Below, in pieces: positions 14,036 to 46,803 of a DNA stretch of 64,000 nucleotides (positions within the stretch are counted from its first letter, which is position 1; each line of letters begins with the position of its first letter). The stretch lies in NCBI RefSeq assembly GCF_040548735.1, contig NZ_JBEPSD010000001.1, positions 806,001 to 870,000 on the forward strand, written 5' to 3'. Source of the stretch: Rhodanobacter soli (GTDB lineage: Bacteria; Pseudomonadota; Gammaproteobacteria; Xanthomonadales; Rhodanobacteraceae). A program made the translations under genes and the position numbers. The notes beneath the pieces were generated by a model that had not been told where the DNA came from, ran no database searches, and saw only the letters and a list, made by a program, of their open reading frames with translations.

Positions 14036-14062
14036 GGCTAGTTCTCTATCTGTTGTTATGAA

Positions 14063-14085
14063 AAGCCGGCGCTCAGGTCCGGCTT
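14063..14085. repeat. Small hairpin in rpoA-rplQ gap
   Basis: Stem AAGCCGG / CCGGCTT with a 9-nt loop lies just before the rplQ start. A second one (GAGCCC / GGGCTC, about 14108-14128) follows it. They precede the paired-loop repeat and could affect mRNA processing; their role is unknown. Confidence 0.5.
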
Positions 14086-14138
14086 CCCGCGGTTACCCGC
14101 TATTACGAGCCCTCTAAAAACGGGCTCTTATGAGAAGT

Positions 14139-14230
14139 GCGGCCATGGATGGCCGCTTCTGGCGCCTGGCGAGAGAGCTAAGCCCAAACTCGCCAGTTCG
14201 CCGGCAACACTGCGATCATGGACGATCGCA
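14139..14230 (+). repeat. Paired-hairpin repeat, copy R1 (rpoA-rplQ gap)
   Basis: Hairpin A at 14139-14156 has stem GCGGCC and hexaloop ATGGAT. Hairpin B at 14211-14230 has stem TGCGATC and loop ATGGAC. Flank TTATGAGAAGTG precedes A. Unlike other copies, about 54 bp separate A and B, including another stem (CTGGCGAG / CTCGCCAG). The loops read NGGA on the strand opposite to the ribosomal transcript. Confidence 0.75.
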
Positions 14231-14241
14231 AAAATGACTCA

Positions 14242-15240
14242 TCAACCCAGCTGCATGCCGTGGGACAGGCCCGGCGGCGGCCAGTTCTCGAGCTTCATGC
14301 CCAGTGCGAGACCACGACCGCCCAGCACGTCCTTGATTTCGGTCAGCGACTTCTTGCCCAGGTTCGGGGTCTTCAGCAGCTCGACCTCGGTCTTCTGCAC
14401 CAGGTCGCCGATGTAGTAGATGCTCTCGGCCTTCAGGCAGTTTGCCGAACGCACGGTGAGCTCCAGATCGTCGATCGGACGCAGCAGCAACGGATCGAAA
14501 CCGCTCTTCTCCGCCTTGTCGGTGGCGCTCTCGCGACGCGAGAAGTCGCCGAACACCGACAGCTGGTCGTTGATGATCTCGGCGGCCTTGCGGACCGCGT
14601 CTTCAGCGCCGATCGTGCCGTTGGTCTCGATGTCCAGCACCAGCTTGTCGAGGTTGGTGCGCTGCTCGACGCGAGCGGCGTCCACTTCGTAGGCCACACG
14701 CAGCACCGGCGCGAACGACGCGTCCAGCTGCAGGCGGCCGATCGGACGTGCCTCGTCATCCGGATGCTGGCGCGTGCTGGCCGGCTGGTAGCCGACGCCG
14801 CGACGCACCTTCAAACGCATGTTGAGTGCGATGTCCTTGGTCAGGTGGCAGATCACGTGCTCGGGGTTGATGATCTCCACCGAGTGGTCGACGACGATGT
14901 CACCGGCCGTGACCACGCCCTTGCCCTTCTTGGACAGGGTCAGGGTGACTTCATCACCCGTATGCTGACGAATCGCCACGTCCTTGAGGTTGAGCAGGAC
15001 TTCGATGACGTCCTCCTGCAGGCCTTCCAGGGTGGTGTATTCGTGCAGCACGCCATCGATTTCGACCTCGACGATGGCACTGCCAGGGATCGAGGAGAGC
15101 AGCACGCGGCGCAGCGCGTTGCCCAGGGTGTGGCCGAAGCCACGCTCGAGCGGCTCGACCACCACCTTGGCGCGGTTGGCTCCGAGCTGTTCGACGCTGA
15201 GGCCACGAGGCCGCAGCACGCTAGTTGACGAAACTGCCAT
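14242..15240 (-). CDS. rpoA: RNA polymerase subunit alpha
   Basis: Alpha subunit, 332 aa. The N-terminal dimerisation and assembly domain (about 1-235) contains the conserved [17 protein letters not shown] near 31-47. The C-terminal domain (about 255-320), which contacts UP-element DNA and activators, includes NCLKAESI and [12 protein letters not shown]. Fourth gene of the alpha operon, 15 bp after rpsD. Confidence 0.98.
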
Positions 15241-16280: not shown

Positions 16281-16306
16281 GGTTTAGAGGCTCTTTGTTA
16301 ATCAGT

Positions 16307-16354
16307 GCGGCCACGGACGGCCGCTTTTTGATCTTCGCGATCAGGGAAGATCGC
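16307..16354 (+). repeat. Paired-hairpin repeat, copy R2 (rpsM-rpsK gap)
   Basis: Hairpin A 16307-16324: stem GCGGCC, loop ACGGAC. Spacer TTTTTGATCTTC. Hairpin B 16337-16354: stem GCGATC, loop AGGGAA. The stems of A and B nearly match those of R1. The NGGA loops lie on the non-transcribed strand of the ribosomal operon. Confidence 0.82.
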
Positions 16355-19777: not shown

Positions 19778-19824
19778 ATCTCCAGAAAGCGGATCGGCTT
19801 GTATGAGCGGCTCTTTTGAAGAGT

Positions 19825-19861
19825 CCGGCCATGGATGGCCGGTCTTCGCGGAGGGACCCGC
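19825..19861 (+). repeat. Paired-hairpin repeat, copy R3 (rplF-rplR gap)
   Basis: Hairpin A 19825-19842: stem CCGGCC, loop ATGGAT. Spacer TCTTC. Hairpin B 19848-19861: stem GCGG, loop AGGGAC. Flank GCTCTTTTGAAGAGT precedes A and is shared with the copies near tuf2. It ends one base before the rplF stop codon. NGGA loops lie opposite to the transcript. Confidence 0.8.
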
Positions 19862-31399: not shown

Positions 31400-31469
31400 T
31401 GATATGTACCTGTGCCGGGCTGCCTGCCCGATTCTATGCAGCCGTCCGGGCCACGCCTTATTTGAGAAT

Positions 31470-31632
31470 CCGCCATGGACGGCGGTGTGTTCTTTGCCGC
31501 CGGGGAAGGCGGCTTGAATCAATATTCGGCATGAATGCCGATTTGTTCTTGCCGCCTTAGAAGACGGCCCGAATCCCAAGACTCCGCCATGAACGGCAGA
31601 ACTGGCTCTGCGCCGTCACGTAATGACGGCGC
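31470..31632 (+). repeat. Paired-hairpin repeat array, copy R4 (rpsG-fusA gap), six hairpins
   Basis: Six consecutive hairpins: 31470-31485 (CCGCC, loop ATGGAC), 31496-31513 (GCCGCC, GGGGAA), 31526-31541 (TCGGC, ATGAAT), 31551-31568 (GCCGCC, TTAGAA, one mismatch), 31584-31599 (loop ATGAAC, one mismatch) and 31610-31632 (9-bp stem GCGCCGTCA). Spacers of hairpin pairs 1-2 and 3-4 contain TGTTCTT. It reads as three successive two-hairpin units, the later ones decayed. Confidence 0.82.
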
Positions 31633-31644
31633 AGGAAAAAACAC

Positions 31645-32112
31645 TTACCAGCGATAGTGCGAGAAGGCCTTGTTGGCTTCCGCCATGCGATGCGTCTCTT
31701 CGCGCTTCTTCGCAGCGCCACCGCGGCTTTCCGAAGCTTCCAGCAGCTCGGCAGCCAGCTTGCGCGGCATCGAGGTCTCGCCACGCTTGCGGGCAGCGTC
31801 GATGACCCAGCGCATCGCCAGCGCCATGCGGCGACCCGGACGCACTTCGACCGGCACCTGGTAGGTGGCGCCACCGACACGACGCGACTTCACCTCGACC
31901 GCCGGAGCGATGTTGTTCAGCGCCTTCTCGACCAGGGCCACCGGCTCGGCATTCTTTTCACCAATGTGCTGCAGCGCACCGTAAACGATGCTTTCAGCGA
32001 CCGACTTCTTGCCGCTCTTCATCACCATGTTGATGAAGCGGGCGATCAGCTGACTGCCGTGCTTGGGATCTGGCAGGACCAGACGGGCGGGATGTGAACC
32101 TTTACGCGACAT
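31645..32112 (-). CDS. rpsG: 30S ribosomal protein S7
   Basis: S7, 155 aa, head nucleation protein and str operon repressor in E. coli. Starts [43 protein letters not shown] is conserved. Follows rpsL by 69 bp; that gap has a small stem GTCCG/CGGAC and a hexaloop hairpin. Confidence 0.98.
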
Positions 32113-32678: not shown

Positions 32679-32698
32679 GAGGTGCGTCCCTGCACCTC
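32679..32698 (-). terminator. Hairpin after rpoC with AGGGAC loop
   Basis: Stem GAGGTGC / GCACCTC, loop AGGGAC on the transcribed sense. It lies 36 bp after the rpoC stop with no U-run. It resembles hairpin B of the paired repeats, in sense orientation, and may be a terminator or processing stem. Confidence 0.45.
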
Positions 32699-45215: not shown

Positions 45216-45321
45216 GCCATCTTCCGTGATGGCAAAGATCAAACCGGCATCCATGCCGGACTTCTCACATTTGTTTCAGCCATCCTCCCTGATGGCAAAG
45301 ATCAGACCGGCATCCTGCCGG
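45216..45321 (-). repeat. Paired-hairpin repeat, two tandem copies R5a and R5b (tuf2-tRNA-Trp gap)
   Basis: On the minus strand R5b (45279-45321) reads CCGGC-AGGAT-GCCGG, spacer TCTGATCTTT, GCCATC-AGGGAG-GATGGC. R5a (45216-45259) reads CCGGC-ATGGAT-GCCGG, spacer TTTGATCTTT, GCCATC-ACGGAA-GATGGC. They form a direct repeat with period 63 bp, flanked by AAGTCCGGC. Loops read NGGA on the transcribed sense strand, just after tuf2. Confidence 0.88.
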
Positions 45322-45339
45322 ACTTTTCACAAAAGCTTT

Positions 45340-46682: not shown

Positions 46683-46693
46683 CAAAGCTTTAA

Positions 46694-46735
46694 CCGTCCT
46701 CCATGACGGCAAAGACAAGACCGGCGTCCTGCCGG
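46694..46735 (-). repeat. Paired-hairpin repeat, copy R6 (tRNA-Gly to tRNA-Thr gap)
   Basis: Minus strand: CCGGC-AGGAC-GCCGG (46721-46735), spacer TCTTGTCTTTG, CCGTC-ATGGAG-GACGG (46694-46709). Flank TGAAGAGT precedes it, identical to the flank of R3. It lies inside a polycistronic tRNA transcript, in sense orientation. Confidence 0.85.
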
Positions 46736-46803
46736 ACTCTTCAAAAATTCGTCGACCTCTGCATCTTCTGCACCGGTCGATCATGTTGACAGGTGCAGCG
46801 CAA

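Follow-up and report, generated by a model that had tools for sequence, protein, structure and literature searches.

The rpsG-fusA gap of Rhodanobacter soli probably holds a tandem array of a dispersed, family-restricted two-hairpin repeat

Most of the gap between rpsG and fusA in Rhodanobacter soli is probably occupied by a dispersed repeat of the host's family, present as three tandem copies of which two are clear and one is degenerate, a reading to which, with the roles proposed below included, we assign a probability of about 0.6. The repeat, hereafter the unit, is a 55-61-nt intergenic element composed of two hairpins in the same direction, and comparison of its copies showed, at the level of sequence, that it is dispersed, restricted to the family and variable in copy number, with covarying stems. 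The best reading of the unit is that of a previously uncatalogued, family-specific, REP-like RNA repeat of two hairpins. Searches with Rfam 15 at the gathering score matched only tRNAs in the window (the whole 64,000-nt stretch that was analysed) and no family for the unit, a search of the rpsG-fusA gap at E<5 returned only sub-threshold noise, and no description of the Rhodanobacter unit or of the rpsG-fusA array was found in the open-access literature.

Both genes lie on the - strand, and the stop codon of rpsG (31645-31647) is separated from the start codon of fusA (31399-31397) by a gap of 245 nt, from 31400 to 31644. Six stems, located at 31470-31634, occupy most of it. Their grouping into three tandem A-B pairs with the spacers TGTGTTCTTT and TTTGTTCTT, as given in the preliminary description, was confirmed, but the last stem ends at 31634 rather than at 31632. 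The pairs follow one another with start-to-start spacings of 56 and 58 nt, and in the mRNA, which corresponds to the - strand, each unit reads B-A and carries NTCCNT-type loops. The features of the gap are as follows:

31572-31634, - strand: unit 1, adjoining rpsG, degenerate, 31.3 bits
31608-31634, - strand: extended B hairpin of unit 1, CTGCGCCGTCA..TGACGGCGCAG, 11/11 paired
31583-31600, - strand: A hairpin of unit 1, TCTGCC[GTTCAT]GGCGGA
31514-31568, - strand: unit 2, 62.8 bits
31551-31568, - strand: B hairpin of unit 2, GCCGTC[TTCTAA]GGCGGC, with the linker AAGAACAAA
31526-31541, - strand: A hairpin of unit 2, TCGGC[ATTCAT]GCCGA
31458-31513, - strand: unit 3, adjoining fusA, 68.4 bits with a covariance model built partly from unit 3 itself
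31496-31513, - strand: B hairpin of unit 3, GCCGCC[TTCCCC]GGCGGC
31486-31495, - strand: linker of unit 3, AAAGAACACA
31470-31485, - strand: A hairpin of unit 3, CCGCC[GTCCAT]GGCGG, with the tail ATTCTCAAATAA
31400-31457, - strand: fusA leader segment, GGCCCGGACGGCTGC..GGGCAGGCAGCCCGGCACAGGTA, probable ribosome-binding site

A history of tandem expansion and decay, which had been suggested earlier, is supported by these scores, the unit nearest rpsG being the most degenerate (31.3 bits versus 62.8 and 68.4). The coding-strand RNA of the gap folds at -110.8 kcal/mol (z = -5.85), with 0 of 200 shuffles as low. In the minimum-free-energy fold, neighbouring B hairpins are paired with each other, so that the array has, according to this folding model, two or more alternative folds, among them that of six simultaneous simple hairpins. 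In the nearby rpoC-rpsL gap (32679-32698), a hairpin GAGGTGC[GTCCCT]GCACCTC was observed, which has an NTCCNT-type hexaloop and is not a complete unit.

In the consensus of the unit, the B hairpin, GC-NNN-C[NTCCNT]G-NNN-GC, and the A hairpin, CCGGC or GCGGCC around [ATCCAT], are joined by the linker AAAGANCAA, and the unit ends with the tail ACTYTTCA. The three middle B pairs and several A pairs vary freely, but jointly. Across 60 aligned units, 97.8% of the cells were paired and 88 double changes were counted versus 25 in shuffles, in an alignment that was fitted to the model and hence leans toward structure; slid controls gave no such signal, and the syntenic-gap counts presented below are independent of the model. 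Units of the fusA-gap loci behaved similarly (98.6% paired; 34 double changes versus 10.9 in shuffles). As judged from these alignments, the stems of the unit covary strongly.

Two covariance models were used, the first (R1) built from 13 units and the second (R2) from 60 distinct units taken from ten congeneric genomes. They yielded 14 matches at E<1e-3 and 22 matches at E<1e-4 in the own genome, respectively, and placed the unit at about 20 sites besides rpsG-fusA. These copies are few and cluster around the ribosomal and str genes, R2 giving a single match in 400 kb sampled elsewhere as 20 spaced 20-kb stretches. A near-exact DNA repeat was rejected: blastn of the own genome found one other, unrelated place with the same two-hairpin layout, and a strict A-hairpin pattern found three. 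Such searches recover few copies because the stems diverge, and a structure model is needed. The other copies in the window are listed below, with gene names that we presume from recognition of the translated sequences and not from a family search:

14127-14193, - strand: unit, weak or incomplete, within an intergenic stretch at about 14040-14260
16295-16354, - strand: unit in the rpsM-rpsK gap, read by the mRNA in UCC orientation
19813-19861, - strand: unit in the rplF-rplR gap, UCC orientation, weaker match with a truncated B hairpin
45216-45271, + strand: unit in the tuf/tRNA-Trp gap, operon on the - strand, transcript loops C[ATGGAT]G and C[ACGGAA]G
45279-45333, + strand: second unit in the tuf/tRNA-Trp gap, with C[AGGAT]G and C[AGGGAG]G as loops in the transcript
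46693-46747, + strand: unit in the tRNA-Gly/tRNA-Thr gap, with C[AGGAC]G and C[ATGGAG]G as loops in the transcript

Further host gaps, presumably named in the same way, are rpsO-pnp, cysJ-cysI, ubiG, tsf-pyrH, rlmN-ndk and queC-queE. The rRNA operon also carries units, in its 16S-tRNA and 23S-5S spacers (L214:1496-1551 and L221:1501-1555), with identical scores in the two rRNA operons. At another locus, an SAH riboswitch (L218:1398-1495) lies directly upstream of a unit, which precedes the next gene. The stretch 14127-14260 contains the hairpins GCGGCC[ATGGAT]GGCCGC and TGCGATC[ATGGAC]GATCGCA, with ANGGAN-type hexaloops, which are not complete units.

Within the host's family (near Dyella), the unit was found in 14 of 19 sampled genomes and 10 of 12 genera, and outside the family, in the same order, in 2 of 102 genomes with one match each. 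Copy number in the family reaches up to about 200 per genome, the high counts of the order-wide survey, which scored at most 45 candidates per genome, being lower bounds. Genome G110 harbors 20 units per 400 kb, partly as identical tandem copies, and both G110 and G083 carry units in either orientation. A rule that operon copies are always UCC-sense holds in the own genus but is absent in two other genera, and was dropped. In the genome of one congener (G003), pairs of GGA-orientation units lie downstream of one tuf gene and beside tRNA-Thr upstream of the other, hinting at exchange between both tuf neighbourhoods. The tuf-trpT gaps of six congeners contain no unit, and instead a different inverted repeat of GGGAATC/GGGAATA motifs.

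The occupancy of the rpsG-fusA gap itself differs among species of the genus. The earlier remark that this gap is unusually long is true, but its length is variable: of the 26 congeners in which the gap could be read, 14 carry one to three units in 126-245 nt, and 12 have roughly 40-75 nt without any. In Dyella nitratireducens, which has the closest named RpsG (94%), the gap is 30 nt. Species that carry units at rpsG-fusA differ from those that carry them at rpsM-rpsK (e.g., genomes G012 and G014), where the unit is likewise present or absent by species and most species without it have a gap of 12-16 nt. Since 12 of the 26 congeners lack the unit and occupancy differs by species, the array appears to be optional and no EF-G-specific device. 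A division of long-gap and short-gap species into two clean clades was rejected, as the tree is poorly resolved and both types are intermixed. The segment directly before fusA, GGCCCGGACGGCTG..GGGCAGG..GCCCGGCACAGGTA (31400-31457), is kept in nearly all long-gap species and was not observed in those with short gaps, most of which begin fusA with GTG. The hairpin array and this leader segment may have arrived as one allele.

Four syntenic gaps (tuf-trpT, tRNA-Gly/tRNA-Thr, rpsM-rpsK and rpsG-fusA) were read in up to 30 species, with hairpins picked by a procedure that scored G-U and A-C alike, ignored the loop letters and was blind to strand. On the transcribed strand, the one-sided stem changes comprised 32 G-U, 4 A-C and 5 others (binomial p 2e-6, from species counts that are not phylogenetically independent), and the G-U:A-C split was 26:3 in the UCC sense and 6:1 in the GGA sense, for which the picks were restricted to unit-like stem arms and other hairpins left out. 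As DNA-level or neutral explanations predict equal numbers of G-U and A-C, the unit hairpins appear from these substitution patterns to be constrained as RNA. A neutral insertion, which the preliminary description had offered as an alternative, is thus a poor fit, as the stems stay paired and G-U is far above A-C on the mRNA strand. A transcription-linked mutation bias of the non-template strand towards C-to-T and A-to-G, in place of RNA selection, would likewise favour G-U over A-C.

The loops depend on orientation. Where the transcript reads C[ANGGAN]G, GGA is kept in all 65 unit hairpins (tuf-trpT in 14 species and tRNA-Gly/tRNA-Thr in 15), and with all picks at these GGA-sense sites counted 65 of 66 retain the core, the exception, CCAGC[GCATAT]GTTGG, lying outside any unit. 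At the UCC-sense sites 30 of 81 picked hairpins retain it (Fisher p 7e-17 versus 65/66), namely 15/24 at rpsM-rpsK and 15/57 at rpsG-fusA, the latter being a rough figure because a few non-unit hairpins are included; rpsM-rpsK alone also differs from the GGA-sense sites (Fisher p 1.5e-5). Loop positions 2 and 6 vary at the GGA-sense sites, and the stems change with compensation (CCGGC, CCAGC, CCGAC, CTTGC). Of the four sites, rpsG-fusA shows the most advanced loop decay, while its stems persist. For the sequences aligned, these comparisons showed retention of GGA loops at just those two syntenic sites whose transcript carries the GGA strand, although greater age, or a weaker constraint of some other origin, could account for the state of the UCC-sense copies.

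The conserved C[ANGGAN]G corresponds to the CsrA/RsmA consensus, CANGGANG (PMC4894983), and the CsrB repeat CAGGA(U/A/C)G sits in hairpin loops (PMC7652899). All 65 unit hairpins of tuf-trpT and glyT-thrT present GGA apically, in a C-G-closed hexaloop, CANGGANG, or, for some A loops, in the five-base form CAGGA(U/C)G, which equals the CsrB repeat (PMC7652899). The own genome encodes one CsrA, nearly identical to that of E. coli over residues 1-56. The two GGA motifs of one unit are about 24 nt apart, and those of the flaA leader, which titrates CsrA with two GGA hexaloops, are 21 nt apart (PMC4894983); Xanthomonas RsmU, an RNA released by cleavage from the 3' UTR of an mRNA, sequesters RsmA (PMC7694677). 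Like these CsrA/RsmA sites and sponges (CsrB, RsmZ, the flaA leader and RsmU), the unit has adjacent hairpins with C[ANGGAN]G loops; unlike them, it is a dispersed repeat of which many copies are transcribed on the wrong strand for CsrA, and its stems of 5-6 G+C-rich pairs are longer than those of most SELEX CsrA hairpins, with four or fewer contiguous pairs (PMC7652899). The GGA-sense unit is a probable, putative portable CsrA site. The wider proposal, that the unit is a portable CsrA/RsmA module whose tuf and tRNA copies would act as sponges titrating CsrA by the output of the translation machinery while the UCC-sense copies are structural only, is a tentative possibility. CsrA sites in the rpsG-fusA array were rejected, as its mRNA strand has decayed UCC-type loops (15/57 keep TCC).

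In the rpsG-fusA mRNA, the array would be, by analogy with E. coli REP/BIME elements, a plain intercistronic hairpin block with drifted loops, which would hinder 3' exonucleases and uncouple rpsG from fusA; it would be neither a loop-recognition site nor an EF-G-specific switch. In the opposite orientation, after tuf and between tRNA-Gly and tRNA-Thr, two adjacent C[ANGGAN]G loops may serve as a CsrA/RsmA site, and the GGA-sense units possibly form a CsrA sponge borne on very abundant transcripts. On the wider, tentative proposal, the UCC-sense copies, those of rpsG-fusA included, would have lost the CsrA function and survive as structural intercistronic hairpins.

The unit satisfies the broad definition of REPs, being an extragenic, short, multicopy palindromic element with a common consensus (PMC12306157), and, like the GTAG-headed, RAYT-associated REP/BIME elements, it consists of short imperfect intergenic palindromes in pairs and tandem arrays in operon gaps. 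A rival explanation is purely selfish DNA of this kind, with hairpins that matter only as single-stranded DNA for mobilisation and are carried neutrally by the host. The high and variable copy number, the tandem arrays, the two orientations in G110 and G083 and the presence/absence polymorphism at rpsM-rpsK, with a 12-16 nt gap in most unit-free species, are all in keeping with that explanation, but we consider it doubtful, given that stem changes at fixed sites are G-U and not A-C on the mRNA strand and that GGA retention follows the direction of transcription. Mobilisation by RAYT (PF01797) was rejected, as the own genome has none, RAYT and unit counts are unlinked (25 units and no RAYT in G012; no unit and four RAYTs in G004), and no unit was found at 17 RAYT loci of relatives. 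Unlike GTAG REPs, the unit has no RAYT in the own genome or alongside, and its stems vary with compensation while loop and linker are fixed (PMC2817692); no GTAG/GTGG head was conserved beside either hairpin in the 60 aligned units. CGTC-tagged REPs resemble the unit as palindromic dimers without a transposase link, but have a terminal CGTC, 8-9 bp stems, 4-5 nt loops, a CCA tail and a mostly head-to-head arrangement (PMC3733652), in contrast to the 5-6 bp stems, 6-nt NTCCNT loops, ACTYTTCA tail and same-direction hairpins of the unit. Membership in the GTAG or CGTC superfamily was thus rejected by the features tested (head, stem, loop, tail and RAYT).

Intrinsic terminators or attenuators, in which the A hairpin and a U-rich stretch would stop or slow RNA polymerase and, at fusA, lower EF-G relative to S7, are suggested by the GGA-strand A hairpins followed by TTTGATCTTT and by a terminator-like score at tuf/trpT. 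These features are mainly on the GGA strand: the rpsG-fusA gap has two such sites antisense and a weak one (tail ATATTGATTC) sense, and the tails in the fusA mRNA direction (ATTCTCAAAT and ATATTGATTC) are poor U-tracts. Partial termination at the rplF-rplR and rpsM-rpsK units would, moreover, disturb equimolar ribosomal proteins. A terminator needs no particular loop; at glyT-thrT the linker varies (e.g., TCTTGATCTACG), yet GGA stands in every unit hairpin loop. We thus regard termination as unlikely. The location of the gap inside the str operon and the segment shared by long-gap species just before fusA would suit a dedicated fusA leader regulator tuned by the array, such as an S7 or EF-G feedback site. 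However, the unit occurs in many unrelated gaps, species differ in how many units and which loops their fusA gap contains, and many congeners have no array, so that such a regulator is very improbable and the tuning of EF-G expression suggested in the preliminary description is not supported.

Palindromes dispersed in bacterial genomes are commonly regarded either as selfish DNA or as generic ends of mRNAs. In the present case, the orientation of transcription divides one repeat family into copies with frozen loops and copies with decaying loops, and this split opens the old question of an RNA function of such repeats to direct testing. Should CsrA bind the frozen loops, tuf and tRNA transcripts throughout the bacterial family would double as CsrA sponges.
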